Shown here piece by piece: positions 1 to 62,254 of a stretch of 63,207 bases of DNA. Position numbers and translations under genes: made by a program. The notes below the pieces were generated by a model that was not told the origin of the DNA, searched no databases, and saw only the letters and a list, made by a program, of their open reading frames with translations. How positions within the stretch are numbered: the stretch's first letter is position 1; each line of letters starts with the position of its first letter. The stretch comes from a virus, in the IMG/VR virus record IMGVR_UViG_3300035670_000204, positions 1 through 63,207 of that record, one strand, 5' to 3'.

Positions 1-122
1 CCAACCCAATGGGTATAGTAGTGGCGGGGCTTACGTATACGCATTACATATACGGGGGCATAACGCTTGACGACAGAACATACGTTTTGTTTACTAAAGG
101 TGTCGGGAGCGAGGTGCTTCCG
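1..122 (+). repeat. Left-end copy of promoter cassette repeat, identical to 62301-62422
   Basis: These 122 bases are identical to 62301-62422; the match stops at position 123. The block holds the conserved element GGTATAGTAGTGGCGGGGC, a variable AT-rich spacer and the TTGACG/TTTACT promoter. A third copy at 63021 shares the first 34 bases and the promoter, but has a different spacer. The left end of the window therefore joins the upstream half of copy 2 to the downstream half of copy 3. Confidence 0.95.
67..95 (+). promoter_or_regulatory. Sigma70-like promoter of the cassette family (copy 1)
   Basis: The -35 box TTGACG (67-72) is separated by 17 bp from TTTACT (90-95). The same promoter occurs at 61325, 62367 and 63088. 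The -10 box is part of GTTTACTA (89-96), the octamer repeated in the AT-rich region. The presumed transcript starts with a hairpin, GGGAGC-GAGGT-GCTTCC (105-121). Box matches are seen; promoter activity is inferred. Confidence 0.65.
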
Positions 123-186
123 GCGAATTTACTTACTTACTTGAGGGTACCGAAATGGCACGCAAAGCAAACAATCTGACCGTTCC
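74..186 (+). repeat. Terminal redundancy, identical to 63095-63207
   Basis: Bases 74-186 are repeated exactly at the right end of the window (offset 63021), including the first eleven codons of the gene at 155. This shows that the sequence closes on itself: a circular map, circular permutation or terminal redundancy. The match breaks at base 73 (A here, G at the right end). Confidence 0.95.
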
Positions 187-805
187 TGCGATTAAAACTG
201 TGGCTGACGTGGCGACCGTCGCACTGGCGAGTGCGACCCAAGAGTTGGAGAGCCGGAAGGCCAAACTGTACGCCGACACGGCTAAAGCGCTTGGCGCGGC
301 GACTAAACTCGCCCCGGCCATGGCGGACAAAAAGGCCGCATTTAAGACGGCGGCGGATGGATTAACGGGTATCCGGTCGGAACTGATGGGGCTGTTCGTG
401 CCGGTGGTCATCGACGCATTGACGTACGGGTCGCTGCCTGACGATTTGTTCGGACGGAAAAAGGGCAAGGGAGGGATTCCGGCGATTAAAGGGAAAGTCC
501 GCGAAACCTTGGAGCCCTTGTACGACGGAAAGCTGGTAAGCGAAATCGTGCGGAACTGCCGGGTGGTGTTCCAGTTCCATAATGAGGCGGGGTCACTTCC
601 TGACCCAAAGAAAAACTTGTCGAGTCTCTACCAGGAAGTGGTAGGGGCTAATCGGAAGAACAAGGACGCCAAAGACAAGACGGCTGCGACCATCTGGAAT
701 GAGTTGAAAGCGTGGTGCGGGGACACGCATGACCAAAACTTCCAGGATATAGAAGCCTACGTCAAGAAAAAGGACAAGGAATTGTACCGGCTCTTGACCG
801 AGTAG
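155..805 (+). CDS. Unknown early protein, 216 aa, lysine-rich
   Basis: I do not recognise this family. The protein is 216 residues, highly charged and lysine-rich, with an alanine-rich helical first 75 residues, a middle stretch with many Gly and Lys (about 95-115) and a helical C-terminus ending in Lys/Asp/Glu-rich sequence. No signal peptide, membrane segment or catalytic motif is visible. The start is chosen because GAGGG lies about 9 bases upstream and the first codons are duplicated exactly at the right end of the window. It is the first gene after a cassette promoter and is followed by a GNRA-loop hairpin, so it is probably a separately expressed early gene. A host-takeover role is only inferred from position and charge. 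Confidence 0.8.
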   Translation: MARKANNLTVPAIKTVADVATVALASATQELESRKAKLYADTAKALGAATKLAPAMADKKAAFKTAADGLTGIRSELMGLFVPVVIDALTYGSLPDDLFGRKKGKGGIPAIKGKVRETLEPLYDGKLVSEIVRNCRVVFQFHNEAGSLPDPKKNLSSLYQEVVGANRKNKDAKDKTAATIWNELKAWCGDTHDQNFQDIEAYVKKKDKELYRLLTE

Positions 806-814
806 GCCAGACAG

Positions 815-834
815 GGGAGGGGGAAACCCCTCCC
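815..834 (+). terminator. Stable hairpin with GAAA tetraloop after the first gene
   Basis: GGGAGGGG (815-822), loop GAAA (823-826), CCCCTCCC (827-834). The stem is perfect but no T-run follows, so it is not a textbook terminator; it may protect or punctuate the message. Similar hairpins lie at 3607, 4816 and 6725. Confidence 0.4.
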
Positions 835-869
835 GACCAAGACTGAACATATACTCAGAGGATAAGACA

Positions 870-1136
870 ATGACCAAGCAATTTACAGTATCCGTATTTT
901 TCACCCAGACTGACTATATCGACGTGGAGCGCACTGCGGACCAACTGCAGAAATGGGGAGACGACTCCCTGATGGCAGGAAGGTACTGGCAGGTCCAGGA
1001 TGACACTGGGGAGGATTGTATATATCGCAGCATTTCGGCGCAAGAGCTGACGCGGTACACCGACCAGGAGATGTCAGACAGGAAATTCGATATGGCTCTT
1101 GAGGCATGGTTGAAGAGGAGGGAACTGGAAGATTAA
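870..1136 (+). CDS. Unknown small early protein, 88 aa
   Basis: An 88-residue acidic protein with a beta-strand-like first half (FTVSVFFTQTDYIDV) and a helical charged second half. The start is preceded by GAGG with suitable spacing (about 858-862). No family is recognised. It lies between the hairpin at 815-834 and the gene-free AT-rich region, and is probably co-transcribed with the gene at 155. After its stop, an imperfect hairpin (CGAGG...CCTCG, 1144-1171) may end or slow transcription before the AT-rich region. Confidence 0.7.
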   Translation: MTKQFTVSVFFTQTDYIDVERTADQLQKWGDDSLMAGRYWQVQDDTGEDCIYRSISAQELTRYTDQEMSDRKFDMALEAWLKRRELED

Positions 1137-1616
1137 AAAATAACGAGGTCTGCCACGGACGGCGGGCCTCGACTACTGTACCGAAAGCAGGCGAATAATA
1201 CACACTCCCCCGGCGGTATAGTAGTGGCCGGGCTACCGGACGGCCCCACTGCCCGACTACGTCAAAACCCCCCAGAGGCGGGCTGTCATATAATTTATAC
1301 GGGATAAGGGCTTCCCATATAAATTATATAATCCATATAAATTATATGGCGGACGATTTCGGCCCTGTATCGGAGCAATAACGCGGGCTATATGTAAAGA
1401 CATAATAATCTATAAAATTACATGTAATCCAAATGTTCAGTTTGTAACTCAGGATACTTAAAATTTCGCCGAATAAATCTTACGTAAAGTAAACATATAA
1501 AATAAGTACAAACTAAACATAGTTTACGTAACCGAAGTTACATAATACACAAATGATATGTTTCATATATAGTAAACATTAGGCGAATGTAAGGACTTTT
1601 TTGTTTACTATGTGTA

Positions 1617-1636
1617 GCTAGCGTGGATAGTGAAAA
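1617..1636 (+). repeat. 20-bp direct repeat, copy 1
   Basis: GCTAGCGTGGATAGTGAAAA is found here and again at 2276-2295, exact over 20 bases. Copy 1 follows immediately after a GTTTACTA octamer (1603-1610). Its spacing and perfect conservation inside non-coding DNA suggest a protein-binding or structural site. Confidence 0.9.
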
Positions 1637-2275
1637 AAACAGTAAATCAACGACTTAATTTGTTTCTTATTCACCTATATATGTTTACTATCGTTATATA
1701 ACTACACATGTTTACAATGTAAAGCCCGAAATAGTAAACAAAATACACGTAAGTCTACACATAAGGCTAAACATACGGCTATGTAAGGCTCAAAAATATA
1801 ATTTATATAAAGCGGATAAAACGCGGATGTTTAGCCGTAAGCCCCTGAATACTTTGTGTAACATAAGTACAAAAGCCGATATGTACGCCTTTTGTTTCTT
1901 TGTTATATGTTTATGTTTGATTTTAGCGTGATATCCGAAAAATATCCAAAGTGCCAGTGGCGATATTGTAGGCGAGTTTGCGGGACGCGATTATGTCGCC
2001 AGTTGGTGTGTGGTGGCTCCAGTAAGTAATGAATTGATTTCTTTAGTATTAGTATTATTAGATTACTTAACTTATTACTACGTTTCCTAGCCACTCAACC
2101 AAGTGGTACCCAAAGATGCGAAATTACATATATACATATCTTTGTGCAGTGCGCAACAACACACCCAACTAAACATCTCGATATGTAATTGGCTACATAT
2201 CCTAATGTTTACTATGTTTAGAACATATAAATAAGTGACCGTTTGCGATTTTGCCCCCTCCCCCTCAAAAACGTG

Positions 2276-2295
2276 GCTAGCGTGGATAGTGAAAA
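2276..2295 (+). repeat. 20-bp direct repeat, copy 2
   Basis: Exact second copy of the repeat at 1617-1636, separated by 659 bp start to start. It lies about 60 bp after the octamer at 2207-2214. Confidence 0.9.
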
Positions 2296-2481
2296 TGGAA
2301 ATATACGGCACCCGTAACTTCTTGATTAGCTAGATAAATTATATATTATGTAATATCTCTATAAACTTAGTTAAAAAGCCCCTGGCTAGTTGTTGATTTT
2401 CCTAGAGATTTAGTAAACATAATCGAAAAAATACTAAACAAACTCATCTAGTAAACATAACATACATAAAATCGGGCTGGC

Positions 2482-2510
2482 TTGACATTTGGCTTTTTTT
2501 GTGGGATAAT
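2482..2510 (+). promoter_or_regulatory. Strong sigma70-type promoter for the DUF3150/MoxR/VWA operon
   Basis: A perfect -35 box TTGACA (2482-2487) is followed after 17 bp by GATAAT (2505-2510), with a T-rich spacer. It lies about 95 bp before the gene at 2604, with no gene between. Recognition by host RNA polymerase with its housekeeping sigma factor is the simplest reading. Confidence 0.8.
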
Positions 2511-2576
2511 ATACTTCACGCTGGAAATCTGTTCAGCGGGACCCGCAACCCTACATTGGGTAGGAATTGCGAATTT

Positions 2577-2589
2577 ATATAATTTATAT
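2577..2589 (+). repeat. 13-mer ATATAAATTATAT family, leader copy
   Basis: ATATAATTTATAT immediately precedes CGGAGA, the ribosome-binding site of the gene at 2604. The same 13-mer followed by the same CGGAGA is at 3647-3659 before the MoxR gene, and a reverse copy is at 4805-4817 before the VWA gene. Other copies lie in the AT-rich region. Confidence 0.8.
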
Positions 2590-2603
2590 CGGAGACCGCA
2601 GAT

Positions 2604-3581
2604 ATGGCATCTATTCGCACCACGTGTATGAAGGGTTCCTTGGTTGTAAAATACGGCGACGGAAAGAAGGGCGCAAAGGAACTGGCCCGAGATGTCGAAG
2701 CCAGTCATGGCGCCGATACGGGCACCCTGTCCACTCGTGTTGATTTATGTTCCAACATGGCGGAGTTCAAGAAAGTCCGCGATTATGTCGCGGAAGTCCG
2801 CAAGTGGTGGCGTGAGCGCAGCGCCGTGTGGGAAGACGGCGGCAGTCGCGTGTTCAAGGCCATGGCGTCGAGCACCATCGAAGCCTATATGTCGCAGGCT
2901 TCGACCCAGTTCTATAAATTGGCACAAGATGCCGTGAATGCGTATCCGGCATACGTCCAGAACCGCCTGCACGAGGTGGGAACCCTGGTCACCCAGGATG
3001 CGTTTTGGACGGTCGAGGAATTCATGGCGAAGTTTACCTTTAACTTCACCACAGAGCCGTTGCCCGATAGGGACGATTTTAGAGTCATAGACGGGCTCAC
3101 CAAACAGGAGGCCGAAGCATTCGGCCAACGTATGGTGGATGAGTCCCGCGCCCGTGTGGAGGCGGCTATGGGGGAAACCAGAGATAAACTTACGTCAGTG
3201 CTAGACCGGCTTGTCGGTCAGTTGGAAAACAAGACCAAGCAAGAAGACGGCGACGACAGCATCAAGCGTGCGCCCATAACCAAGTCCTCCCTGGAAGCCC
3301 TATGGGACGCTATCAAAGCCGTCCCTGGGCTGAACATCGCCGGGCACCCTGGCTTGGATGCCATGGCCAGCGAGCTGGAACACGCCCTGGATGGCGTAAC
3401 CGTGGATGCGCTAAAGGACGACCGGGCTACCCGTGACCGGGTTGCCTCGGTGACAAAGTCCGTGTCGGAATCCTTGAAGTCCATGCTGTCTGATGACAGC
3501 CTGGAGCACGAGGCTGAAAGCGTGGACGTATGCGGCGAGAAAGCCGCAACCTTGAAGGCTAGCCTTCAAGATATGTTTTGA
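2604..3581 (+). CDS. DUF3150-like protein, first gene of a MoxR/VWA operon
   Basis: A 325-residue protein, mostly helical and charged, with a Trp-rich stretch (about residues 68-80, KWWRERSAVW) and a long C-terminal region with Ser/Asp/Glu. It has no signal peptide, membrane segment or catalytic motif. The size, helical character and position directly before a MoxR-type ATPase and a VWA protein match the DUF3150 family, which accompanies such pairs in several phages; the family name is my recollection and was not searched. The start is supported by CGGAGA about 10 bases upstream. It is the first gene after the strong promoter at 2482-2510 and ends before a stable hairpin. It may be the substrate or adaptor of the ATPase; this is inference. 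Confidence 0.65.
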   Translation: MASIRTTCMKGSLVVKYGDGKKGAKELARDVEASHGADTGTLSTRVDLCSNMAEFKKVRDYVAEVRKWWRERSAVWEDGGSRVFKAMASSTIEAYMSQASTQFYKLAQDAVNAYPAYVQNRLHEVGTLVTQDAFWTVEEFMAKFTFNFTTEPLPDRDDFRVIDGLTKQEAEAFGQRMVDESRARVEAAMGETRDKLTSVLDRLVGQLENKTKQEDGDDSIKRAPITKSSLEALWDAIKAVPGLNIAGHPGLDAMASELEHALDGVTVDALKDDRATRDRVASVTKSVSESLKSMLSDDSLEHEAESVDVCGEKAATLKASLQDMF

Positions 3582-3606
3582 TTCTACCCTGGGGTAGGAT
3601 TAACCT

Positions 3607-3632
3607 GGGGGGATGGGCTGTTCTATCCCCCC
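3607..3632 (+). other. Intercistronic hairpin between DUF3150-like and MoxR genes
   Basis: GGGGGGAT (3607-3614) pairs with ATCCCCCC (3625-3632) over a 10-base loop; a smaller hairpin CTACC-CTGG-GGTAG lies just upstream (about 3584-3597). No T-run follows, so RNA processing, stabilisation or partial termination is more likely than full termination. Confidence 0.55.
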
Positions 3633-3672
3633 GAACCAGAGCACTTATATAATTTATATCGGAGATAAGACC

Positions 3673-4800
3673 ATGAACATGATTCAAGCCATGCGCCAGA
3701 TTAGCCTAAAGCAACTGCCCAAGGCCCTCACCTTGGCGTACGTGTCCAATCAAAACGTGTTTCTTGCTGGTCAACCCGGCATCGGCAAGACCGTCACGGT
3801 TGAAAAATATGCTCGCATGATGCGGAAACGTATCCCTGAGTTTCAAATCTGGCGGGTGTCTATGCCTGCCCTTACCGCGATGGATATTCAGGCGACCGTT
3901 CCCGATGTCGAGACCATGACCCTTACGGTAATCAACACCACGCTGTTGCCCAATGCCCTGGGCAATGACGCCGAAGCCAAGGGCTCTATCTATCTGGGCG
4001 AGCTTGCCCAAGCTGACCCCCACGCGCTAAAGCCCCTGCAGAAGTACATCAACGGCGAGCCCTTCAATGGGCTGCAGAAGCCCGAAGGTGTCAATGTAAT
4101 CGCAGATGGCAACAGACAAGAGGATAAGTCTGGCGCGATTCGACAAGGCCGCGCATTCATGTCTCGATTCTTGTACCTGGAAACCATAAACCCAGTCGAG
4201 GATGACATCGAATACGCGGTGACTCAGGGATTTCATCCAGACGTAACGTCATTCATGTCTGTCAATCCGGATTTAGTTAATACGTACAACGCAGAAGATG
4301 ACAACTCCCGCGCTGACCGGGACATTGGACGCTGGGGTGGGATGCGCCAGTGGGAGCAGCTATCCGGACTAGAATACGCGGCGGACGAGTTCAACCTGGC
4401 TCTAATAGATATGCCTCAGATGGTAGCGGCGGCAGTGGGTGCAGTAATAGGTACAAAGTATTTAGCATACAAGACCATATATAAATCTTTGCCTACGGTT
4501 GCGCAGATATGCGCCAACCCAAGCACGGCGCCCGTACCACAGGAGCACGACAAGCAACATGCGCTTATTAGCATCATCTTGTCGCGCATTACATCCACTC
4601 AACTTGATAGCGTTGTGCCGTACGTCATGCGGTTACCTGTTACTTTGCAAGTCTTATTCATGCGCGGTGTGGAGGCCCGCGCTGCACGAGCGGCCAAGTC
4701 TCGGCGTGGGGATGGGTTTACCATTTCGAGCCCGGCCTATATTAAGTTCACTTCGGACTCGAAGTTCAAGAGCCTGATTCGGTCCAGTGTGAACGAGTAA
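3673..4800 (+). CDS. MoxR-type AAA+ ATPase
   Basis: A 375-residue ATPase of the MoxR/dynein-related kind. The Walker A motif GQPGIGKT is at residues 33-40. The Walker B position reads IYLGE (106-110), with Gly at 109 where Asp is usual while the Glu is kept. This is unusual and could reduce or alter magnesium-dependent hydrolysis. MoxR proteins typically work with a VWA protein as a remodelling machine, and the next gene is such a protein. The start at 3673 is preferred over an in-frame start 60 bases upstream, because the latter lies inside the hairpin region and 3673 has GGAG 9-12 bases upstream. The leader carries the 13-mer at 3647-3659. The target is unknown. Confidence 0.85.
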   Translation: MNMIQAMRQISLKQLPKALTLAYVSNQNVFLAGQPGIGKTVTVEKYARMMRKRIPEFQIWRVSMPALTAMDIQATVPDVETMTLTVINTTLLPNALGNDAEAKGSIYLGELAQADPHALKPLQKYINGEPFNGLQKPEGVNVIADGNRQEDKSGAIRQGRAFMSRFLYLETINPVEDDIEYAVTQGFHPDVTSFMSVNPDLVNTYNAEDDNSRADRDIGRWGGMRQWEQLSGLEYAADEFNLALIDMPQMVAAAVGAVIGTKYLAYKTIYKSLPTVAQICANPSTAPVPQEHDKQHALISIILSRITSTQLDSVVPYVMRLPVTLQVLFMRGVEARAARAAKSRRGDGFTISSPAYIKFTSDSKFKSLIRSSVNE

Positions 4801-4815
4801 CCTGATATAAATTAT

Positions 4816-4838
4816 ATGGGGTGGCACATCCACCCCAT
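4816..4838 (+). other. Intercistronic hairpin between MoxR and VWA genes
   Basis: ATGGGGTGG (4816-4824), loop CACAT, CCACCCCAT (4830-4838): a perfect 9-bp stem directly after the 13-mer ATATAAATTATAT (4805-4817). No T-run follows. It is the second stable hairpin in this three-gene set. Confidence 0.6.
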
Positions 4839-4863
4839 GGCTTACTAATCTACGGAGCATAAC

Positions 4864-6336
4864 ATGAACACACTTCCCGATATCGACCGCGTGTCAGTCA
4901 ACATGGTAATCCGCTTTGGTTACTTTGCGGACTTATTGATGACCATGAACCTGCAGGTGAATCCCAACATCCCGACCTTGGCGACCGATGGTAAGAGCCT
5001 ATGGGTCAACCCCGTTTATTGGGACACTCTGTCCTTCGACTTGAAAGTCTCGGCGCTGGCGCATGAAGTCTTGCATAAAGCCTTGGCTCACATGATGCGG
5101 CGGAATGGCCGTGACCCGTTGATTTTCAACATTGCTTGCGACCACATCGTAAATCATATCTTGCGCGAGAATAATTTTCTGTTAGATGCAAACTGGATAT
5201 ACGATTCCCACATCGTGTATGATATTGAGAACGGCTGGCGAGAGCGCACCGAAGAGCAGATATATGATTTGCTTATAGAACGCAATCGTCCCAACACGCC
5301 GCCGCCCCCTCCCCCAGAGAACGAGGAAGAGGGCGAAGGCGAAGGCGAGAACGAAGCCCCCGGTGGTACCGGCGAAGGTGAAGGCGAGCAAGGCCAGGGC
5401 GAGGGTGACGAGCAGGGCCAAGGCCAGGGTACCGGCGAGGGCGAGAGCCCGAAGGAGTCCGGCAAAGGCCAGGGTACCGGCGAGGGCGAGCAGGGCCAGG
5501 GCCAGGCTGAATCGGGCCAGGACGCGGGCGACCCCGAAGACCAGGGGAAAGGCGAGGGTAGAAACAAGGGCCGCCAGGCGGGCACGGGAACAGGCACACA
5601 GACGATGCACATACCAGGGCTGGCCAACCCCGACCAGCTCAAGTTCCTGGGCGACATCGTAGAGCCGGAGGGCAACCTGACCCACGCCAAACACAAGGCG
5701 CTGTCCGAAGCGGCCGAAGCATTCAACCGGGCGGGGACCAAACCCGAAGGACTGCGCGAGCGGCTGAGCAGCTTGAACATCACTGAGCCGACCCCTTGGT
5801 ACCAGGTATTACAGCAGTACGTGACCAGCATCACTATGAACGAACGTACGTGGAATCGGTTCGACCGTAGGACATACGTAAATTACGGCGTGATGGCGCC
5901 GGGTCAGTTCAGCCATACGGTGAATCATGTAACCATAGCCGTGGACACCTCGGGCTCTGTGTTCAGTGCAGCCCAACAAGCAGGGTTCCAAGACCACATG
6001 AACGATATCATCCGGGCGTCTAACGTAAAGTCGGTGTCGGTATTGGAGTTCGACACCAGGGTTATGCGGGCGACCGAGTATGAATTGTCGCAAGGCGAGA
6101 CGATTAACTTCGACGCCGTAGGTGGTGGCGGCACAGACTTCCGGTGTATATGGGAGTGGGTGGATACCTATAAGTCTGACACTGACCTGGTAATAGTTCT
6201 GACCGATATGTTCGGCCCGATGGGTGAGGAACCCCCGTGTCCTGTGCTGTGGGCGTGTATCCACAACCGGGGTGAGCGTATGGCCAAGTTCGGTGACGTA
6301 GTGTACGTTGCACCAGCCAAAGATAGTTATTACTAG
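4864..6336 (+). CDS. DUF2201-like protein: HExxH metallopeptidase-like domain plus VWA-like domain
   Basis: A 490-residue protein with three parts. The N-terminal domain (about 1-140) carries HEVLH at 67-71, a zincin-type zinc motif in the context of a DUF2201 N-terminal domain. A low-complexity linker (about 145-245) is made of Gly, Glu and Gln repeats. The C-terminal domain (about 350-490) is VWA-like, with the metal-site motif DTSGS at 361-365 and later GGGTDF and LTDMF. This is the usual partner of MoxR ATPases. GGAG lies upstream of the start. The repeat-rich linker creates long misleading open frames on both other readings. Whether the peptidase site is active cannot be judged; Gln/Glu linkers suggest a flexible tether. 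Confidence 0.85.
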   Translation: MNTLPDIDRVSVNMVIRFGYFADLLMTMNLQVNPNIPTLATDGKSLWVNPVYWDTLSFDLKVSALAHEVLHKALAHMMRRNGRDPLIFNIACDHIVNHILRENNFLLDANWIYDSHIVYDIENGWRERTEEQIYDLLIERNRPNTPPPPPPENEEEGEGEGENEAPGGTGEGEGEQGQGEGDEQGQGQGTGEGESPKESGKGQGTGEGEQGQGQAESGQDAGDPEDQGKGEGRNKGRQAGTGTGTQTMHIPGLANPDQLKFLGDIVEPEGNLTHAKHKALSEAAEAFNRAGTKPEGLRERLSSLNITEPTPWYQVLQQYVTSITMNERTWNRFDRRTYVNYGVMAPGQFSHTVNHVTIAVDTSGSVFSAAQQAGFQDHMNDIIRASNVKSVSVLEFDTRVMRATEYELSQGETINFDAVGGGGTDFRCIWEWVDTYKSDTDLVIVLTDMFGPMGEEPPCPVLWACIHNRGERMAKFGDVVYVAPAKDSYY

Positions 6337-6345
6337 GAGGCAGCC

Positions 6346-6714
6346 ATGAATCATGCCGACATAGACATTCGTATGTGTCGGCATCGGTTCGACTTGATAA
6401 AACGCAAGATATTTGATTTGACCGAGATGCGTATATTATCAGTCGGACTCGATGCTGGCCTGTTAGACCTAGACAATCCACCTAGCAAAGATATATTGCT
6501 GGATAAGTTCCTGACCATGGGTGTCACGGTGAAGCGAAGCAAGTTTAATTTCTATGAATACGAAAACCTACTTGCTGACATTGCGCAACTGGACCCGGAC
6601 CAGCACAAGTGGGTGGATAATACAAAGATATGGCACAGCCTAAAGGTAGGTGTCCATATACTTAGAGCATATTACTTAGACAGGTGTGAGACGGAGAAAA
6701 AAATAATGCCTTAG
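6346..6714 (+). CDS. Unknown protein, 122 aa, downstream of the VWA gene
   Basis: A 122-residue protein of mixed charge with a helical pattern and no recognised motif. A perfect AGGAGG ribosome site lies 6-11 bases before the start, and the gene begins 10 bases after the VWA stop, so it is translated from the same message. The GCAA-loop hairpin at 6725-6744 follows. As the fourth gene of this unit it may belong to the AAA+/VWA system, but nothing in its sequence shows that. Confidence 0.75.
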   Translation: MNHADIDIRMCRHRFDLIKRKIFDLTEMRILSVGLDAGLLDLDNPPSKDILLDKFLTMGVTVKRSKFNFYEYENLLADIAQLDPDQHKWVDNTKIWHSLKVGVHILRAYYLDRCETEKKIMP

Positions 6715-6724
6715 TCCTATTGCA

Positions 6725-6744
6725 TAGCCCCCGCAAGGGGGCTA
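6725..6744 (+). terminator. GNRA-loop hairpin closing the MoxR/VWA operon
   Basis: TAGCCCCC (6725-6732), loop GCAA (6733-6736), GGGGGCTA (6737-6744). The stem is perfect, but only TACTAAA follows rather than a T-run. It could be a weak terminator or an RNA-stability element, separating this operon from the small-gene block. Confidence 0.5.
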
Positions 6745-6774
6745 TACTAAACCCACTAACCAAGTAACCGAGTG

Positions 6775-7032
6775 ATGACAATGAACATGCAGGAGAATAT
6801 GCGGCTCAAAAGAATTGAGACGCGACTAACCAAGCTGGGACTATTTATAGGCGTTGACCTGCGGGCACAGCCAACCCCTATCGAAATAGACTTGAAAGCA
6901 AAAGTTATTCACATGCCCAATCCCGACTTCCCGCTGTCCACTATCATTGAAGAGATGAAATATGTAGGCGCGACAGATGGGTGGTACACGTTGGAATCGA
7001 ACGGCGCAAACTTAGGGGACATTAAGATATGA
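6775..7032 (+). CDS. Unknown small protein, 85 aa
   Basis: An 85-residue protein with no recognised family. GTG (6772), ATG (6775) and ATG (6781) are all possible starts in one frame; the ribosome site is weak (CCGAG), so the exact start is uncertain. The first half is basic and helical, and the second half contains the strand-like IDLKAKVIHM. It ends in an ATGA overlap with the next gene (7029), so the two are translationally coupled. It is the first of a run of tightly packed small genes typical of phage early regions. Confidence 0.65.
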   Translation: MTMNMQENMRLKRIETRLTKLGLFIGVDLRAQPTPIEIDLKAKVIHMPNPDFPLSTIIEEMKYVGATDGWYTLESNGANLGDIKI

Positions 7033-7289
7033 GCATGACCATTCAGATGGAAATAAGCCAAGCGCAGTACCGGGCGGCGAAACGTGCGTTCCACTATATG
7101 GCCAAGGCGGTGGAGATGGTTGCCTTGCTGCCCAAGCCTGCCATGGAGCGCTTGGCCCCCCGTATGGTGCAGGTCGCATCCGAGCTGGAGTCCTTGATTG
7201 ATATGGTCGAAGACTCTTTGGAAGCGCAAGAGGATGAGGACATCGCGGACGAGTGCCGGGCTGAGGACGGCGGCCGTGGGGTTCACTAG
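7029..7289 (+). CDS. Unknown small helical protein, 86 aa
   Basis: An 86-residue protein, basic and helical at the N-terminus (RAAKRAFHYMAKAVEM) and strongly acidic at the end (EDSLEAQEDEDIADE). It starts in the ATGA overlap with the preceding gene and its 3' end overlaps the next gene in another frame. No family is recognised. The amphipathic helical pattern would fit a small DNA- or protein-binding adaptor, but this is a guess. Confidence 0.65.
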   Translation: MSMTIQMEISQAQYRAAKRAFHYMAKAVEMVALLPKPAMERLAPRMVQVASELESLIDMVEDSLEAQEDEDIADECRAEDGGRGVH

Positions 7290-7470
7290 CTTCGGGGCGG
7301 GGGACTACTATACCCCTCGAATTAAGGTCGCCAGGGTGGATGAAGGCGGCGCAGAATTGGAGCTGATTATTCCCAATTCTATAAATTTATATTTGGGCTA
7401 TGTTCCGGTGGGAGCCGAGATAGAACTGGAGCCCATAACTTTGGAGATTATCGCGCATGACAAAAGATAA
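7276..7470 (+). CDS. Unknown small protein, 64 aa, GTG start
   Basis: The reading frame is open further upstream, but I choose the GTG at 7276 because GAGG lies about 9 bases before it and the upstream codons coincide with the preceding gene. The 64-residue product looks like a small all-beta fold (RIKVARVDEGGAELELIIP, then LEPITLEIIA). It overlaps the preceding gene by 14 bases and the DUF3310 gene by 14 bases. Function unknown. Within its first codons the reverse strand carries GGTATAGTAGT (7304-7314), matching the cassette element. Confidence 0.55.
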   Translation: MGFTSFGAGDYYTPRIKVARVDEGGAELELIIPNSINLYLGYVPVGAEIELEPITLEIIAHDKR

Positions 7471-7681
7471 CATAAATCCTGAGCACTATAAGTCCATGGG
7501 GCTGGAGTGCATTGACTGTATCCAAGGGGCCGTAATGGACCTTCCTGGAATGCAGGGATACCTTACTGGAAACGTGATGAAGTATATATGGCGGTTCCAG
7601 CGCAAAAACGGCGTCGAAGACCTGAACAAGGCCAAGTGGTACCTGGAGCGATTGATTAAAACCGTGGAGGAAGCGCAGTGA
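7457..7681 (+). CDS. DUF3310 protein, T7 gp1.7-like nucleotide kinase
   Basis: A 74-residue protein with the hallmark order of this family: NPEHY near the start, then LECIDCIQ, GNVMKYIWRF and DLNKAKWYLERLI. In phage T7 the related gp1.7 is a nucleoside monophosphate kinase acting on dTMP and dGMP, and many phages carry this short form. It overlaps its neighbours by 14 and 4 bases. With the ThyX and deaminase genes further on, it suggests a phage programme to enlarge thymidine nucleotide pools. Family assignment is strong by motif; enzymatic activity of the short form is known only for some members. Confidence 0.85.
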   Translation: MTKDNINPEHYKSMGLECIDCIQGAVMDLPGMQGYLTGNVMKYIWRFQRKNGVEDLNKAKWYLERLIKTVEEAQ

Positions 7682-7941
7682 ATATAAATTTATATTTTGA
7701 CGTTGTTCAGCGTAGGAATGTCTTTGCCAAGGCGTGCCAAGAATGGGTCCTGACCTGCGAAGACACAGACAAGCATGACAAGTGGGTCCTTACCACCTGG
7801 GAGGGCAAGAAGCGCCCGTCAACGGCAGCGATACATAAAGCCATTGATGCCGCGCTGCAGGCGATGCGAATGTATAACACTATGGCGGCTGCGCGGAGCA
7901 CGTTCCACGTCTCGGCGCAATTTAATAACTTCGAGGAATAG
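7678..7941 (+). CDS. Unknown small protein, 87 aa, GTG start
   Basis: An 87-residue protein starting at GTG in a GTGA overlap with the DUF3310 stop, so it is probably made by translational coupling. It has several Trp residues and a helical middle (TAAIHKAIDAALQAMRMYNTM). The start region contains ATAAATTTATAT, which here simply encodes INLY. No known family. Confidence 0.6.
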   Translation: MNINLYFDVVQRRNVFAKACQEWVLTCEDTDKHDKWVLTTWEGKKRPSTAAIHKAIDAALQAMRMYNTMAAARSTFHVSAQFNNFEE

Positions 7942-7943
7942 CC

Positions 7944-8156
7944 ATGCCAAACCAAAACATAAATTGGGACAAGGTCCCCGAGTGGATGAATTACTTGGCC
8001 ATGGACAGCGACGGCCTTTGGTTCGGATATGCCGAAGAGCCGTACCACGAGCCGGGGTCGTCTACGTGGGACTACACGGGCCGTATGGCCACCCTGGACC
8101 GCGACGTATTTACTGACTTCACTGCGACACTAACCAAGCGCCCTAACGCGGAGTAA
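7944..8156 (+). CDS. Small protein with W..PEWM..AMD..GLW motif, 70 aa (family member 1)
   Basis: A 70-residue protein beginning with NWDKVPEWMNYLAMDSDGLW, followed by an aromatic, acidic segment. The same N-terminal pattern is seen in the proteins at 9268 (PPEWAKYKSMDADGIW) and 9979 (APAWATHAAMNRNMSW). This short aromatic module recurs in small phage proteins; I know no assigned function. It has its own gene two bases after the previous stop. Confidence 0.7.
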   Translation: MPNQNINWDKVPEWMNYLAMDSDGLWFGYAEEPYHEPGSSTWDYTGRMATLDRDVFTDFTATLTKRPNAE

Positions 8157-8160
8157 TAAC

Positions 8161-8442
8161 ATGAAGACCAAGACTGCTGATAGAAACATAAGAGTTGATA
8201 TTACCTACGAAGGTGAAGACTTCGACGGGTTCACGGATGACTTCTGCTACGAGCTGGAGACACACGGCATGGGGCTGGTCGCGGGCCTTGACGAGGATGC
8301 CATGCGGATAAAAGGCAACATCGTTCGGGACGATACGCGAACCAAGCGGCTGAGCGTGGATGATTTATATTATGTTCAAGACCTGGTCGCCCGGTTCGGA
8401 TTTTCCAAGTACGAACTGAGCATGTACCTGGACGCGAGTTAA
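8161..8442 (+). CDS. Unknown small acidic protein, 93 aa
   Basis: A 93-residue protein with a strand-rich first half (RVDITYEGEDFDGFTDDF) and a helical C-terminus. It starts 4 bases after the previous stop and is followed 4 bases later by the GTG of the helix-turn-helix gene. No recognised motif. Confidence 0.65.
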   Translation: MKTKTADRNIRVDITYEGEDFDGFTDDFCYELETHGMGLVAGLDEDAMRIKGNIVRDDTRTKRLSVDDLYYVQDLVARFGFSKYELSMYLDAS

Positions 8443-8446
8443 GACC

Positions 8447-8866
8447 GTGCGCCCGTTCACCACCACTGAAGCGAAGATTATTCGTGAGTGGACGGGCACC
8501 CTCCCCGAGTTGGGTAGAAGACTGGACCGCACAGCCAAGTCTATCTCCCAATTTCGGGTTCGCTCTGGGATAGCCCGGAAACGTCAGAATGTATCTGCGG
8601 AGATGCGCCGGGATATCATAGCAGCAGCGAAGCGGGGTGACTCGCACAAACGGATTGCCACAAGAATGAATTTATGTCTTGAGACCGTTGGCATTGTGAC
8701 CAAAAACGCCGGGTTACATAGACGCAAAAAGTATTCTGAGGCAGAGCTACAGATTGTAGCTGAGTGGACTGGTACCCTCCGTGGCCTAGCTGAGAAGATA
8801 GGGCGAAGCGTACCGGCTATAAAATATATACGTCGCACTGTAAAGAAGGGGACTACCAATGTTTGA
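8447..8866 (+). CDS. Helix-turn-helix DNA-binding protein with internal duplication, 139 aa
   Basis: A 139-residue basic protein, start GTG. It contains two matching segments: residues about 5-35 (TTTEAKIIREWTGTLPELG...) and about 97-127 (SEAELQIVAEWTGTLRGLA...), each resembling a helix-turn-helix of the SANT/Myb or sigma-region-4 kind. Between them lies another candidate (IIAAAKRGDSHKRIATRMNL). The shared EWTGTL core marks an internal duplication. Such proteins are found in phages as homing-associated or regulatory DNA binders. With three potential DNA-binding units it could read an extended or repeated site such as the octamers at 1.5-2.5 kb; this is inference. Confidence 0.7.
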   Translation: MRPFTTTEAKIIREWTGTLPELGRRLDRTAKSISQFRVRSGIARKRQNVSAEMRRDIIAAAKRGDSHKRIATRMNLCLETVGIVTKNAGLHRRKKYSEAELQIVAEWTGTLRGLAEKIGRSVPAIKYIRRTVKKGTTNV

Positions 8867-8975
8867 AGATTGGATTTACACCATCATACACTATGCACTG
8901 GTGAGCGCCGGGGCGTTCACACTGCTGGGGTTTATTATTACTGCCATTGAAGGGAAAGACAATGAGCAAGATTAG
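8859..8975 (+). CDS. Small membrane peptide, 38 aa
   Basis: A 38-residue open frame starting at ATG 8859, overlapping the previous stop by 8 bases and the next start by 14 bases. It has a short polar start, a long hydrophobic stretch (about residues 6-30, with SAGAFTLLGFIITAI) and a charged end (EGKDNEQD), i.e. one predicted membrane span. The close packing between two genes supports reality. It might modify the host membrane or act in superinfection exclusion, but there is no direct evidence. Confidence 0.55.
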   Translation: MFEDWIYTIIHYALVSAGAFTLLGFIITAIEGKDNEQD

Positions 8976-9258
8976 CGTTATGTTTGAAGTATCAGAGCCT
9001 AATCCGGATATAATACTTCAAGACAGGCTACACGCTGGGTTGTTGATGGACGACGTAACAGATGACATCGCAGCCCACCTCGAACACCGGAACCTTAGCC
9101 TGACTGGGATGTATACGCCATTCAAGTTCCACGGGTACCTGGTCGGAGCTGGAGATAGACTTAACTGCACGGTTACATTAGAGGATGAACTGCACCTAGG
9201 CGAATTCTTGAGCTTGAACCATCATGTGTGCGCGTACGATATAACAAACCAAAACTGA
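8962..9258 (+). CDS. Unknown small acidic protein, 98 aa
   Basis: A 98-residue protein with alternating strand and helix segments. The ATG at 8962 is chosen over an in-frame TTG at 8947, because AAGGGA lies at a good distance before the ATG. No family is recognised. It overlaps the small membrane peptide gene by 14 bases. Confidence 0.65.
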   Translation: MSKISVMFEVSEPNPDIILQDRLHAGLLMDDVTDDIAAHLEHRNLSLTGMYTPFKFHGYLVGAGDRLNCTVTLEDELHLGEFLSLNHHVCAYDITNQN

Positions 9259-9267
9259 GGTGATGCC

Positions 9268-9726
9268 ATGACCGATACCATACGTTTGAATCAGCCACCC
9301 GAATGGGCAAAGTACAAGTCCATGGATGCAGATGGAATCTGGACCTTCTGGAGTCACAGACCTAGACCCCTGCGCTCCATGGGAATCTGGGTGTTCCCTG
9401 AAAACTGGAGCAAACACTTCCGCAGTGCCATCGTGACCGACACGAAGTCCGACCCGAGTAAGATGCCATACCAATGGTATGAGACAGTTCAGGCCCTACA
9501 CGACAGGCTGGAAATTTGCCGTATCTGTCTGGGTGATTGTGTGTGCGCAGACCCGGACCCCGAGCAGACTATATCTATTCCTGCGACATGCGTGTGCGAC
9601 TTAGAAGAGTGGGACTTGCGCGTCCTGTCCATCTCAGTCGTATGTGATAAGTTCGTTGCGCATGATATGTTAGACGATGCCTGTCAGGTATGTTTTCACA
9701 GCCGTAAGTGCCACGCGGAGGGCTAG
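9268..9726 (+). CDS. Cys-rich protein with PPEWA..SMDADGIW motif, 152 aa (family member 2)
   Basis: The N-terminus (about 8-45) carries the same aromatic motif as the proteins at 7944 and 9979. The rest contains Cys clusters CRICLGDCVC (about 90-99) and CQVCFHSRKCH (near the C-terminus), suggesting one or two zinc-binding knuckles. So it looks like a fusion of the small module with a zinc-finger-like tail. Preceded by GAGG about 9 bases before the ATG. Function unknown; nucleic acid or protein binding is the natural guess. Confidence 0.7.
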   Translation: MTDTIRLNQPPEWAKYKSMDADGIWTFWSHRPRPLRSMGIWVFPENWSKHFRSAIVTDTKSDPSKMPYQWYETVQALHDRLEICRICLGDCVCADPDPEQTISIPATCVCDLEEWDLRVLSISVVCDKFVAHDMLDDACQVCFHSRKCHAEG

Positions 9727-9728
9727 CC

Positions 9729-9986
9729 ATGATTGACCAAGAATATATAACAATGGTATTCCGCGCCAAAGACATGCCAGACGGAGATATATCTGACTTA
9801 CTCCGTATCCAATCGTGCGTTTATATGTCATGGGGGCATATTCCCTATGACTACGACAAGCTCAAGTACAGCGTGGATAACGCCAAAGAGCTAAACCACA
9901 TGAATGACCAGCTATGCCGCCAGCTTACAGCCCTGGAGCGTATGGCCAGCGCATTAGACCGCCTATCTGGAGGGCAGCATGATTGA
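9729..9986 (+). CDS. Unknown small helical protein, 85 aa
   Basis: An 85-residue protein; the ATG at 9729 follows GGAGGG and the previous stop, and is preferred over in-frame codons upstream inside the previous gene. The C-terminal half is a likely coiled helix (about residues 45-80). It overlaps the next gene by 8 bases. No family recognised. Confidence 0.65.
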   Translation: MIDQEYITMVFRAKDMPDGDISDLLRIQSCVYMSWGHIPYDYDKLKYSVDNAKELNHMNDQLCRQLTALERMASALDRLSGGQHD

Positions 9987-10173
9987 TTGGAGCACCGCCC
10001 CCGCATGGGCTACCCATGCTGCGATGAATAGAAATATGTCTTGGTATTGGTTCTCGGCCAAGCCTATTCCCTGCGGCTGGACCTGGGCTGCACCCTTCGA
10101 AAACAGACTGCGGTTCGAAGCGCCCTGTTTCCCTGGGGATTGGACACAGTCATTACAGGAACGACCCGTATGA
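9979..10173 (+). CDS. Small protein with W..APAWA..AMN..W motif, 64 aa (family member 3)
   Basis: A 64-residue Trp- and Pro-rich protein starting MIDWSTAPAWATHAAM, a divergent third copy of the module at 7944 and 9268. GGAGGG lies 6-11 bases before the start. Its stop overlaps the polymerase start as ATGA (10170-10173), so polymerase translation is probably coupled to it. Confidence 0.65.
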   Translation: MIDWSTAPAWATHAAMNRNMSWYWFSAKPIPCGWTWAAPFENRLRFEAPCFPGDWTQSLQERPV

Positions 10174-11966
10174 ACATCATTACACTGGACTTTGAAACGT
10201 ACTACTCCAAGGAGTACACGTTATCAAAACTTACGACAGAAGCATACGTTCGGGATGCCCGCTTCGAGCCCATGATATTGGGTATCAAGATAAACGACGG
10301 CGAAACCTACTCGGTATCGGGGACAAAGAATATCAAGCTGGAGCTGGCAAATTTAGACATACGTAATAACGCTGTCCTGTGCCATCACACCCACTTCGAC
10401 GGGCTGATACTGTCCCACTGGTACGGCCTGGTTCCGCTGCTGTACCTGGACACCCTGAGCATGGCCAGAGCGGTCCTGCCTCCTATGCGGTCCCGCAGCT
10501 TGCGAAAGCTGGCCGAAGCCCTGGGCGTAGGGGTGAAGGGCTCGGAGGTGGACAACGCCATTGGGTACCACCTGAAAGACCTAAAGCCCCTGCAGCTTGA
10601 CACGTACGAGACCTACTGCCGTAACGACGTAGACTTGACCTGGCGCATCTTCCGGCGCCTGGCCAAGTTGATGCCAAAGCAAGAGCTGGCCATTATTGAC
10701 ATGGTGATTCGTATGTTCACCTGTCCACGGTTTGAGCTGGACCCAGAGGTTTTGAATACTGAGCTGTACGTTTTGAGAAAGAACAAGGCTACGTTACTCA
10801 AGAGCGTAGGCGTAGACCAAATCGAGCTGATGTCCAACGACCGCCTGGCTGCCCTTCTGGCGTCTTACGGCGTTGACCCACCGACCAAGCTGAGCGTTCG
10901 TACCAACCGCCAGACGTATGCGTTCGCAAAGAACGACGAGGCGTTCCAAGCCCTGGCAGACCACCCTAATCCGGACGTACAGGCCATCGTAGCGGCGAGG
11001 CTGGCCCACAAGTCCACCATCTTTGAGACCCGCGCAGACAGGCTCCTAGGGGTGCAGCAGCGCGGCCCGGCTCCGGTGTACATCGTGTACTACGGCGCGA
11101 AGCAAACGGGACGCATGTCCGGAGGCGATAAGCTGAACTGGCAGAACATGGGGCGAGGGAGCTTTCTGCGCCGGGCGGTACGTGCCCCTGCAGGATACAA
11201 AATCGTAGCTGTGGACAGTAGCAACATCGAAGCCCGCGTCCTGGATTGGCTGGCGGGGGAAGACCTGAGCGTGTACATGACTGGCGACCCATACTGCGCC
11301 CTGGCGTCGAAGATATACGACAAGCCCGTCACTGAAGATGACAAAGCAGAACGTATGTTAGGAAAAATAGCCAAGTTGGGATTGGGCTACGGTATGGGGG
11401 CGATGAAATTCATCACGACTTGTAAGGGTTGGGGCGTTGACATTGACCCGCAGTTTGCTGAGATGGTTGTAGATGTTTATAGGAATTCGAACCTGAGAGT
11501 CAAAGCCCTGTGGAAACGGTTCAATGATATAATACCTGCCTTGGCAACTAATAAACAAGGGCATGTAATAGACCCGAGAGAGTTGCTTATTACCGACGAT
11601 ATGAGTATAATACTCCCCAATGGGTTGAAGATAATGTACCCCGAATTATCTTATGACAGAAAGACCCGAGAGTATTCATTCTATAACGGTAAGTCACGGG
11701 AGAAACTTTATGGTGGAAAAATAACTGAAAACGTAGTTCAGGCACTGGCGAGAATAATTGTAATAGACCAAACATTAGAGCTGTCAGAACACTATCCTGT
11801 ATCCCTCACCGTACACGATGAGGCGGTGATGGTGGTACCCGAGCGGGATGCGGAACACGCGGCGCAATTATCGAAAGACCTATTTAGTACACCGCCGATA
11901 TGGGCACCCGACTTACCACTGGCAGCAAAAGCAAGCATCGGAGATACTTATGCTGACTGCAAATAA
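10170..11966 (+). CDS. Family A DNA polymerase with 3'-5' exonuclease
   Basis: A 598-residue replicative polymerase. The proofreading domain shows Exo I (LDFE, D7 and E9), Exo II (HFDG, D77) and Exo III (Y149...D153). The polymerase domain shows motif A (VDSSNIEAR, D349/E354), motif B (R395...K399...GYG) and motif C (HDE, 549-551). The residue matching E. coli Phe762 is Leu403. I chose ATG 10170, in ATGA overlap with the previous stop, because the exonuclease motif begins right there; the frame is open 43 codons upstream, but only over the previous gene. It is shorter than Pol I and lacks the 5'-3' exonuclease, as usual for phages. It should copy the genome with the helicases and primase downstream. 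Confidence 0.95.
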   Translation: MNIITLDFETYYSKEYTLSKLTTEAYVRDARFEPMILGIKINDGETYSVSGTKNIKLELANLDIRNNAVLCHHTHFDGLILSHWYGLVPLLYLDTLSMARAVLPPMRSRSLRKLAEALGVGVKGSEVDNAIGYHLKDLKPLQLDTYETYCRNDVDLTWRIFRRLAKLMPKQELAIIDMVIRMFTCPRFELDPEVLNTELYVLRKNKATLLKSVGVDQIELMSNDRLAALLASYGVDPPTKLSVRTNRQTYAFAKNDEAFQALADHPNPDVQAIVAARLAHKSTIFETRADRLLGVQQRGPAPVYIVYYGAKQTGRMSGGDKLNWQNMGRGSFLRRAVRAPAGYKIVAVDSSNIEARVLDWLAGEDLSVYMTGDPYCALASKIYDKPVTEDDKAERMLGKIAKLGLGYGMGAMKFITTCKGWGVDIDPQFAEMVVDVYRNSNLRVKALWKRFNDIIPALATNKQGHVIDPRELLITDDMSIILPNGLKIMYPELSYDRKTREYSFYNGKSREKLYGGKITENVVQALARIIVIDQTLELSEHYPVSLTVHDEAVMVVPERDAEHAAQLSKDLFSTPPIWAPDLPLAAKASIGDTYADCK

Positions 11967-12165
11967 CAATAGGTGTAACAGTAACTACATGGCCAGATTA
12001 AAGCTACAAGGTTACGATATACGGTTTGATATATCTGACGCGGGGATATCCATAATATCCAATACTACGGGGCGCAGGTATAACCCGCCCGCAGCAAATA
12101 TATGCGATGCGTTTAACATGGCAATAGCCGACATTGAAGCTAACGAGGTGTACCTAGATGAGTAA
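11950..12165 (+). CDS. Unknown small protein, 71 aa
   Basis: A 71-residue protein starting at ATG 11950 inside the last codons of the polymerase gene (17-base overlap) and overlapping the ThyX start by 8 bases. The middle looks beta-rich (DIRFDISDAGISIISNTTG). No known family. Position between polymerase and ThyX suggests co-expression only. Confidence 0.65.
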   Translation: MLTANNNRCNSNYMARLKLQGYDIRFDISDAGISIISNTTGRRYNPPAANICDAFNMAIADIEANEVYLDE

Positions 12166-13093
12166 TATATACGCCGCTGTGATAGAAGATTCACTGTTCC
12201 CGAAGGGTGACCCGGTTAAGCATAGGCTAATCAGTATTGAGATATATCTTCCAAAGATATTAGATGCTGAGTTTGAAAAGCACCGGTCCATAAATTCTAA
12301 CTCAAGCTCCGACAGGGCCATGAGTTTTACTCGCGTCTCCTGCATGGACCCTTTTATACCGAGTGACATTCGGATATCCAACGTATCCATGCGCAGCGAC
12401 AGTCCGGCCCCTTCAGCCGTAGCGGATAGTTTTATCCAGACCGTGATGGAGCTACGCGACTACACGATAGACAAGCTGCATCCATTCCATAAGATGATAC
12501 ATAAGCAACATCTTAACCGGTACATGGTCGCTTACTCGATGCAGAAGAAGTTGGCCACGGCGACCCTGGACTGGTGGAACTACTTCATCAAGTTGCGGGC
12601 CGCCCCCGATGCAGACCCGGCGATTATCAAAGTTGCGCGGTGCATCCAACAGGCCATTCAAGCATCGGAGCCCGTAGACCCCGCCGAGAAAGTTGGGCAC
12701 TTATGTTATATTACAAAAGAAGAGCGCCGAACCCTTGCCTACGAATACCCTATCCTGGCCCTTGCGTCGGCGGCTCGCTGTGCCAGAACTAGCTACCTTC
12801 GAGATGGGGTGAACGCACCTACGCTAGAGGATGACTTGATTCGCGCCAACAAGCTCATCGACGACATACACCTGACACCCTTCGACCATCAGGCGACTCC
12901 GACGACTGTCACGCAGGTCACCAATCAGGCGCTATCCTGGGGGGACCTGACTGAGTTGCTACACGACGCAACCCACATCGACAGAGAAGGGTTCGTATGG
13001 TGTAACAGCCTCAGAGGGTGGAGCCAGTTCCGAACTCACCCCCTGGTGACCCGTGGGCGTGACCTATATGGCCCAGCCAAAGAGGAAGCGTAA
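12158..13093 (+). CDS. thyX: Flavin-dependent thymidylate synthase (ThyX-like)
   Basis: A 311-residue ThyX-like enzyme, which makes dTMP from dUMP with FAD, NADPH and methylene-tetrahydrofolate. The signature region reads KHRSINSNSSSDR at 41-53, matching the ThyX pattern RHRxxSxNxxSxR with Lys for the first Arg. A second conserved zone near the C-terminus has LRGWSQFRTHP (about residues 283-293), which fits the family's substrate-binding end. The protein is longer than the usual 215-250 residues because of an extra helical middle region. It begins in overlap with the previous gene, and its stop is directly followed by the deaminase start (TAAATG). Together they would feed thymidylate synthesis. 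Confidence 0.8.
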   Translation: MSNIYAAVIEDSLFPKGDPVKHRLISIEIYLPKILDAEFEKHRSINSNSSSDRAMSFTRVSCMDPFIPSDIRISNVSMRSDSPAPSAVADSFIQTVMELRDYTIDKLHPFHKMIHKQHLNRYMVAYSMQKKLATATLDWWNYFIKLRAAPDADPAIIKVARCIQQAIQASEPVDPAEKVGHLCYITKEERRTLAYEYPILALASAARCARTSYLRDGVNAPTLEDDLIRANKLIDDIHLTPFDHQATPTTVTQVTNQALSWGDLTELLHDATHIDREGFVWCNSLRGWSQFRTHPLVTRGRDLYGPAKEEA

Positions 13094-13537
13094 ATGCCAA
13101 CTATGCGCCCGTCTTGGGATGAAACCTGGCTGTCCATTGCCCACACCATGGCCGAACGTACGACCTGCAGAAGTGGCCGCGCTGTGGGAGCTGTTGCAGT
13201 ACGAGACAAGCGCCAAATCGCCAGCGGGTACAACGGGGTTCCCTCGGGTGTAGACCACCCTACGCGCTGTATACGCCGGGAGCAGAAGATACCATCAGGG
13301 CACTCCCCCCACCTGTGCGGATGCCAACATGCGGAGAGTAACTTGGTAGCCTCGGCTGCGCGGTTTGGGATTCCCCTAGAAGGGGCGACGGTGTATCTGA
13401 CCTGTTCGCCGTGCATCGCCTGTGTCGGGATGCTGGCACATGCGGGGGTAATTGAAGTCGTGTACGCTGACGCATACCCAGACGATGCCGCGCTGCGGAT
13501 TGGAGCGCAGTCTGGGATACTGTTACGTAAAGCCTAA
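13094..13537 (+). CDS. Deoxycytidylate (dCMP)-type deaminase
   Basis: A 147-residue zinc deaminase with HAE at 79-81 and PC..C at 106-110 (SPCIAC), the complete zinc and proton-shuttle set. The N-terminal part includes RSGRAVGAVAV and NGVPSG, typical of dCMP deaminases of phages. It would convert dCMP to dUMP, the substrate of the ThyX immediately upstream, to which it is joined by TAAATG. A related deaminase specificity (dCTP or others) cannot be excluded from the sequence. Confidence 0.9.
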   Translation: MPTMRPSWDETWLSIAHTMAERTTCRSGRAVGAVAVRDKRQIASGYNGVPSGVDHPTRCIRREQKIPSGHSPHLCGCQHAESNLVASAARFGIPLEGATVYLTCSPCIACVGMLAHAGVIEVVYADAYPDDAALRIGAQSGILLRKA

Positions 13538-13544
13538 ATAAAAA

Positions 13545-13575
13545 GCCCGCGTCCTAGTGTCGGCTAGGAGCGGGC
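13545..13575 (-). terminator. Rho-independent-like terminator oriented leftward
   Basis: GCCCGCGTCCTAG pairs with CTAGGAGCGGGC (one bulge) around the loop TGTCGG. The T-run exists only on the minus strand (GGGCTTTTTATTT); on the plus strand the hairpin is followed by CAAGGGG. It would therefore stop leftward transcripts coming from within or beyond this operon, although all genes here point rightward. On the plus strand it may still serve as an RNA hairpin. Confidence 0.6.
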
Positions 13576-13657
13576 CAAGGGGTGTGGTCAAGACCGCTGC
13601 GTTCACGATTCAGAGTATAGCGGGACCAATTTTTGCCGTCAACATGAGGATACTGCC

Positions 13658-13918
13658 ATGCCATCCAGCCCGAACTACAAACGCAATTACGACCAAGAGT
13701 ACGCCACGGCTAAATCGCGGGGCGAGGTAGAAGGCTCCCGTCTCCGCAAGCAAGCCAGACGGGACATGCTGAAGCGCGGCATGGTCCGACCCGGCCAAGA
13801 CGTAGACCACAAGAAGCCCCTATCCAAAGGTGGGTCGAATGCAAAAGGTAATCTACGAGCGGCACCACCCAGCAAGAACCGGTCCTTTCCACGAAACAAA
13901 GATGGGAGCATGAAGTAA
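13658..13918 (+). CDS. Small HNH-like endonuclease
   Basis: An 86-residue basic protein. The C-terminal half reads DVDHKKPLSKGGSN then NLR, with D50-H51 as the start of the metal finger and N61/N65 following, then SKNRSF. This resembles the short HNH proteins common in phages; the last His of a canonical HNH is replaced by NRS-type sequence, so catalysis is uncertain. GAGG lies upstream. It follows the 120-base gap with the leftward terminator and is joined to the next gene by TAAATG. Confidence 0.7.
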   Translation: MPSSPNYKRNYDQEYATAKSRGEVEGSRLRKQARRDMLKRGMVRPGQDVDHKKPLSKGGSNAKGNLRAAPPSKNRSFPRNKDGSMK

Positions 13919-14590: not shown

Positions 14591-14594
14591 ACCT

Positions 14595-16453: not shown

Positions 16454-16507
16454 CCGGCTATACTTATACCCGTAGTCGATAAATACATTACTTACGAGAC
16501 CGCTGCC

Positions 16508-16942: not shown

Positions 16943-16959
16943 CCCACGAGGATATGAAG

Positions 16960-18048: not shown

Positions 18049-18058
18049 CAGCTCAACC

Positions 18059-18083
18059 CCCCTCCCCACTGCGGGAGGGGTTT
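18059..18083 (+). terminator. Hairpin terminator after the ssDNA-binding gene
   Basis: CCCCTCCC (18059-18066), loop of six, GGGAGGGG (18073-18080), then TTT, which runs into the AGGAGG of the next gene. It is a strong stem with a short T-run, so probably a partial terminator. Confidence 0.6.
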
Positions 18084-18094
18084 AGGAGGTCACC

Positions 18095-18430: not shown

Positions 18431-18439
18431 AAGCAAGAC

Positions 18440-18461: not shown

Positions 18462-18474
18462 GCGTCGGTGCATT

Positions 18475-62241: not shown

Positions 62242-62254
62242 CCCGCCCCACCAA

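Follow-up and report, generated by a model that had tools for sequence, protein, structure and literature searches.

What does a tailed phage do with a AAA+ ATPase, a metallopeptidase-VWA protein and a third protein encoded next to its replication genes? The question is raised by the window, i.e., the whole 63,207-bp virus record analyzed here, which comes from a tailed phage. Its rightward genes include those of a DNA polymerase, a helicase, an exonuclease and a DUF927 primase/helicase, and its leftward genes those of a terminase, a portal-like protein and a capsid protein. The three genes considered here (the trio, 2604-6336, + strand) adjoin the replication genes. We give a probability of about 0.55 to the reading in which their products make up one AAA+ remodelling machine that acts early, along with genome replication. 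The pair formed by a MoxR ATPase and a VWA-metallopeptidase is present in hundreds of phages including N4; no tested function was found for it, and the wrong label "HNH endonuclease" is common. The third gene and the presence of the trio on plasmids narrow the range of roles, which would go beyond virion assembly, and give DUF3150 a context.

Gene layout and putative control sequences

On re-reading, the three open reading frames, their motifs and their coordinates proved to be correct in the first-pass annotation of this DNA. The first gene (P0001, 325 aa, 2604-3581, +) encodes the third component, assigned to the DUF3150 family by homologues and fold and denoted D. The second (P0002, 375 aa, 3673-4800, +) encodes a MoxR-type AAA+ ATPase, denoted A, and CGGAGA is found 8 nt upstream of its start codon. 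The third (P0003, 490 aa, 4864-6336, +) encodes a DUF2201 protein, denoted V, in which a HExxH zincin-like N-terminal domain is followed by a Gly/Glu/Gln-rich linker and a C-terminal VWA domain with its MIDAS. A 122-aa ORF located directly 3' of the trio (6346-6714, +), for which no relatives were found, possibly belongs to the same transcript. In the virion-gene half, the largest gene of the window (42970-51162, - strand) encodes a 2730-aa protein with no Pfam match. In Rollin, the nearest phage by capsid and primase, the trio is absent from the examined 30-61 kb part. An Rfam search gave no match.

The claim of one strong promoter ahead of the trio is borne out by a scan of positions 1-18600: a sigma70-like promoter (TTGACA, 17 nt, TG-GATAAT; 2482-2510, +; 11/12 matches) is the joint best of these 18.6 kb. 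Position and promoter suggest that the trio is used early. The palindromic 13-mer ATATAATTTATAT had been said to mark each leader. It does abut the Shine-Dalgarno motif of the first two genes, being found directly 5' of that of the P0001 gene (2577-2589, +) and of the ATPase gene (3647-3659, +), but the copy ahead of the VWA gene is inverted and lies immediately 3' of the ATPase stop codon (4805-4817, -). Counting both strands, the window contains 14 matches with at most one mismatch (0.04 expected), corresponding to 8 distinct sites, all inside 1288-4817 and none elsewhere. Four sites at 1288-1808 and an imperfect one at 2332 are located upstream of the operon, in an AT-rich non-coding stretch. 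The sites have the form of a near-palindrome, ATATAAWTTATAT, one being found before each of the three genes, and this near-palindrome may be the operator of a phage regulator covering the trio operon. A role as phage-wide promoter was rejected, as the remainder of the window has no copy of the 13-mer and only 2 of 153 loci match it, one of these (L001) being the window itself. The non-coding stretch (1137-2482, 1.35 kb) carries TGTTTACTA/TAGTAAACA repeats in both directions, with 10 of the window's 22 matches (at most one mismatch) in 1487-2457, as well as a 20-bp direct repeat, GCTAGCGTGGATAGTGAAAA, near 1617 and 2277. It resembles a replication origin or a control region.

GC-rich hairpins are found 3' of the first gene (3607-3632, +, without T-run), 5' of the VWA gene (4816-4838, +, without T-run on the + strand) and at the close of the gene cluster (6724-6745, +). 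Together with one at 815-834, each stands 10-26 nt past a stop codon. The hairpins without T-runs that had been described between the genes are real, but hairpins in the window are no more numerous than expected by chance (24 versus 23.4 ± 2.9 in shuffles). On this count they were rejected as a special signal, and the lack of a T-run on the coding strand led to their rejection as terminators. They may protect the mRNA or mark it for cutting. Elsewhere, two identical perfect hairpins, AACCCCGCCAAGGAAGGCGGGGTT (62253-62276 and 62975-62998), are followed by T-runs and are likely duplicated terminators.

Family membership and linkage of the three genes

P0003 carries HEVLH at residues 67-71 and DTSGS, within a VWA domain with intact MIDAS, at residues 361-365. 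It matches Pfam DUF2201_N (1.2e-29) and DUF2201 (4.3e-21), both above cut-off, and PHROG phrog_1314 (9.8e-76); with HExxH and DxSxS...T...D in place, it is a DUF2201 protein. The "HNH endonuclease" label carried by gp25-type proteins (PHROG phrog_1314, RefSeq) is unsupported, both DUF2201 domains being found instead. All 36 resolved three-gene proteins have an intact HExxH, as do 85 of 89 resolved two-gene proteins, and no resolved DUF2201 protein lacks the MIDAS DxSxS. Since the MIDAS is found in all resolved rows while HExxH is sometimes missing, the VWA grip is the feature retained throughout. The two-gene proteins without HExxH (L004, L053, L058, and L060) keep the MIDAS, and in OLIVR1 (L004) the loss of HExxH is accompanied by that of the Walker B Asp (Ser).

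P0002 matches AAA_5 (5.6e-6, above cut-off) and phrog_1297 (1.6e-41). Its predicted structure (pLDDT 89.7) has NorQ, including NorQ-NorD VWA complexes, and CbbQ (2.4e-9) as best PDB matches. A CobS (cobaltochelatase) reading, through phrog_249 at 7.3e-5, was rejected because the match spans the P-loop only. No close relatives of P0002 and P0003 were found in viral contigs; relatives are found in 312 (P0002) and 401 (P0003) phage records.

Thus, the Pfam families anticipated for P0002 and P0003 were recovered directly, but DUF3150 was reached for P0001 only through its family. Taken alone, P0001 has no Pfam match, DUF3150 (PF11348) included; PF11348 is matched by 11 of 27 P0001 family members (best 1.2e-9). 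The predicted structure (pLDDT 86.9) matches a viral DUF3150 model in BFVD (Foldseek 2.4e-14, TM 0.70/0.77), and comparison with PDB sequences and folds gave nothing significant. Judging from close homologues and predicted fold, P0001 belongs to DUF3150. Its direct relatives come from one phage species in three records (Pag-Yong1/MinM2/Pra-JY27). In MinM2, the relative is annotated DUF3150 and lies between the ATPase and VWA genes.

The P0001 search was iterated through L009 and L071, and the resulting alignment retrieved 39 viral loci (contigs); a search of plasmids yielded 44 records. As the search for D loci was seeded by D alone, profiles then being run for all three genes, it is unbiased toward A or V. 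Both A and V are present at all 22 D loci having at least 5 kb of left and 3 kb of right flank; D loci missing a partner are cut by a contig end on at least one side. Complete three-gene loci have their genes on one strand (33/33), in the orders A-D-V (15), A-V-D (11), and D-A-V (7), and in L071 D and V overlap by ATGA. On the other hand, D is found within the flanks of none of 100 ATPase-seeded two-gene loci, and on the ATPase tree the D label requires 5 changes versus 27 for shuffled labels. P0001-type D is thus near-obligately linked to A and V in phages and plasmids. This linkage backs the DUF3150 partner in the first-pass view of a MoxR/VWA remodelling machine. As two-gene versions are common (D in 0/100), D appears dispensable for the core machine. 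The gene following the trio in L071 (9347-10399) encodes a DnaJ domain and an ASCH-like domain, possibly a co-chaperone link. No relative was found by scanning bacterial genome contigs for the DUF3150 gene. The open literature yielded no mention of DUF3150 and four articles mentioning DUF2201, none with a title concerning this system; both are weak evidence, most subscription papers being outside the scope.

The trio is also carried by plasmids of Burkholderiales and Rhodovastum, some of them conjugative. The order A-D-V is found in Simplicispira, Burkholderia ambifaria pBMC401, Rhodovastum, Cupriavidus, Paraburkholderia, and Variovorax (L147-L152). On pBMC401 and the Paraburkholderia acidisoli plasmid, the trio directly precedes virB/trb-like (type IV secretion) transfer genes, and three of the trio plasmids have PRTRC genes nearby. 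Synechocystis pSYSA has the two-gene form. On the P. acidisoli plasmid (L151, 6604-7850), the unannotated ATPase gene is in two overlapping frames and looks broken, the DUF3150 and VWA genes being open.

The Walker B site of P0002

P0002 shows the marks of MoxR-class AAA+ proteins: Walker A (GQPGIGKT, 33-40), sensor-1 Asn, Arg finger, and sensor-2 Arg. The Walker B motif departs from the expected hhhhDE: as the first-pass annotation had noticed, SIYLGE places Gly109-Glu110 at the site. As EE and DD variants occur in the three-gene subtype, this was treated as a variant site and not as a ground for exclusion. In a first set of 104 ATPases, where one of the two peptide patterns used for most of the seeding contains [DS]E and leans to D or S, the Asp is present in 102, the exceptions being the window (Gly) and OLIVR1 (Ser). 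In the three-gene set, for which the ATPase mostly did not serve as seed, the counts for the pair are 22 DE, 4 EE, 6 DD, and 1 GE (n = 33), versus 99 DE and 1 SE in the two-gene set (n = 100). The difference (11/33 versus 1/100 not DE; Fisher 5e-7) is inflated by relatedness, corresponding to about 4 changes versus 1. Alignment across relatives thus sustained the oddity of Gly109, which recurs in 0 of the 129 other ATPases with this column resolved, but set it within a three-gene subtype whose Walker B site is relaxed.

It could be argued from this uniqueness that loss of the Walker B Asp has left P0002 a degenerate pseudo-enzyme without activity, and that the complex is a static scaffold. This is improbable. 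P0002 retains Lys39, Glu110, sensor-1 Asn147, Arg165, and Arg225, i.e., all its other catalytic residues; relatives share the Walker A Lys, the sensor-1 Asn, and the Arg finger wherever these positions align, and three-gene relatives have EE or DD at Walker B. Moreover, PilT-like ATPases naturally have Gly at the same place, Mg2+ being positioned by another acidic residue (PMC5424180). Gly109 also depends on one base (GGC/GAC) of one metagenome assembly, where an error or a polymorphism is possible. With Walker B relaxed in the subtype and the remaining catalytic residues all in place, P0002 is probably an altered enzyme and not a dead one, its chemistry having changed without being lost. Gly109 is a single-lineage oddity and does not show the ATPase to be inactive. 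No other ATPase of the tree is as divergent as P0002 (end branch 3.19), so that a function shared with the others is assumed.

Possible roles and comparison with known systems

By analogy with the ring and VWA grip of NorQ/NorD (PMC9976466), it can be proposed that P0002 forms a NorQ/CbbQ-like ring. The three proteins would bind one another. The VWA domain of P0003 would dock on the ring, its MIDAS metal gripping an acidic site on the target complex, and ATP hydrolysis by the ring would pull on this target. The HExxH domain would aid docking or nick the target. P0001, a long-helix protein, would be the subunit peculiar to this subtype, selecting the target or tethering it to the machine.

Genomic context bears on the target. 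The trio and the DNA polymerase share one strand in all 11 viral contigs with a detected polymerase and in the window (12/12 phages), usually 2-6 kb apart, and the polymerase is the only neighbour that recurs widely across lineages. The terminase gene runs opposite to the trio in 3 of 4 contigs as well as in the window (4/5 phages). Together with the plasmid copies, these arrangements point to a function in replication, in establishment or in takeover of the host. The jumbo-phage MoxR-vWA(metallopeptidase) pair has been described as chaperone and co-chaperone, and a part in virion assembly has been proposed for it by analogy with a two-tailed archaeal virus (Iyer et al., 2021; PMC7824862); the pair would remodel and trim structural proteins while the head or tail is assembled. 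Four virion proteins are also encoded near the gp24/gp25 homologues of roseophage RPP1 (PMC4193335). However, the plasmids that carry the trio make no virions, and gp24/gp25 of N4 belong to the middle and not to the late genes (PMC4193335). Polymerase co-orientation and presence on conjugative plasmids make a purely virion-assembly role unlikely, and the chaperone proposal is doubtful for the trio. As the trio is also present on plasmids, its target is most likely not the virion but either a complex of the host or the machinery with which the element itself replicates or becomes established.

A counter-defence or anti-restriction function, in which the trio would disarm an immune complex of the host shortly after the DNA enters, is slightly less doubtful, though still unlikely. 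It would explain why phages and conjugative plasmids have the trio in common, and it fits the place of the trio as first operon behind a strong promoter in the window, as well as its position beside trb/virB genes for type IV secretion on two plasmids, pBMC401 and that of P. acidisoli. Against it, PADLOC defence and anti-defence models gave no convincing match to any of the three proteins, and the genes are not small and fast-changing, unlike most anti-defence genes. Inactivation of a host complex, as suggested in the first-pass annotation, is possible. Returning to the remodelling machine, a more specific version can be put forward tentatively: DUF3150, MoxR and DUF2201-VWA proteins would form a distinct mobile three-component machine of phages and conjugative plasmids, with DUF3150 as target recogniser and a drifted Walker B chemistry. 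While the element establishes itself, this machine would dismantle or reprogram a complex by which the host replicates, transcribes or defends itself.

The ATPase/DUF2201 pair itself is already described: it is homologous to gp24/gp25 of phage N4, and its jumbo-phage version is published with the proposal cited above. The pair is found in N4-like, cyano-, V5-like, and jumbo phages, as exemplified by Agrobacterium phage OLIVR1, cyanophage S-TIM5, Cronobacter phage CR9, jumbo phage MIJ3, and Rhizobium phage TM27A. What is newly added here is the DUF3150 third gene. N4 gp24/gp25 (phrog_1297/phrog_1314, Schitoviridae and others) share with the trio homologous genes and a replication-side place, but have no DUF3150 gene nearby, are about 20-28% identical and have an almost invariant Walker B "DE." The jumbo-phage pair has the same chaperone/co-chaperone architecture, but a third component is unmentioned in the available part of that work, and the role proposed is virion assembly (PMC7824862). 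The bacterial remodellers NorQ/NorD and CbbQ/CbbO resemble the trio through the predicted P0002 fold and the kept VWA MIDAS; they differ by their metabolic-enzyme targets and by having neither a DUF2201 zincin domain nor a DUF3150 partner. As to bpMoxR/VMAP-type membership, the bpMoxR match of P0002 is below cut-off (20.3 of 27 bits), with no beta-propeller or VMAP partner in the neighbouring genes scanned. MoxR-vWA ternary conflict systems (PMC7159879) likewise combine MoxR, VWA and a linked third protein, but there the third place is taken by VMAP, iSTAND or other proteins, many effectors being fused, whereas in the trio it is taken by a DUF3150 protein.
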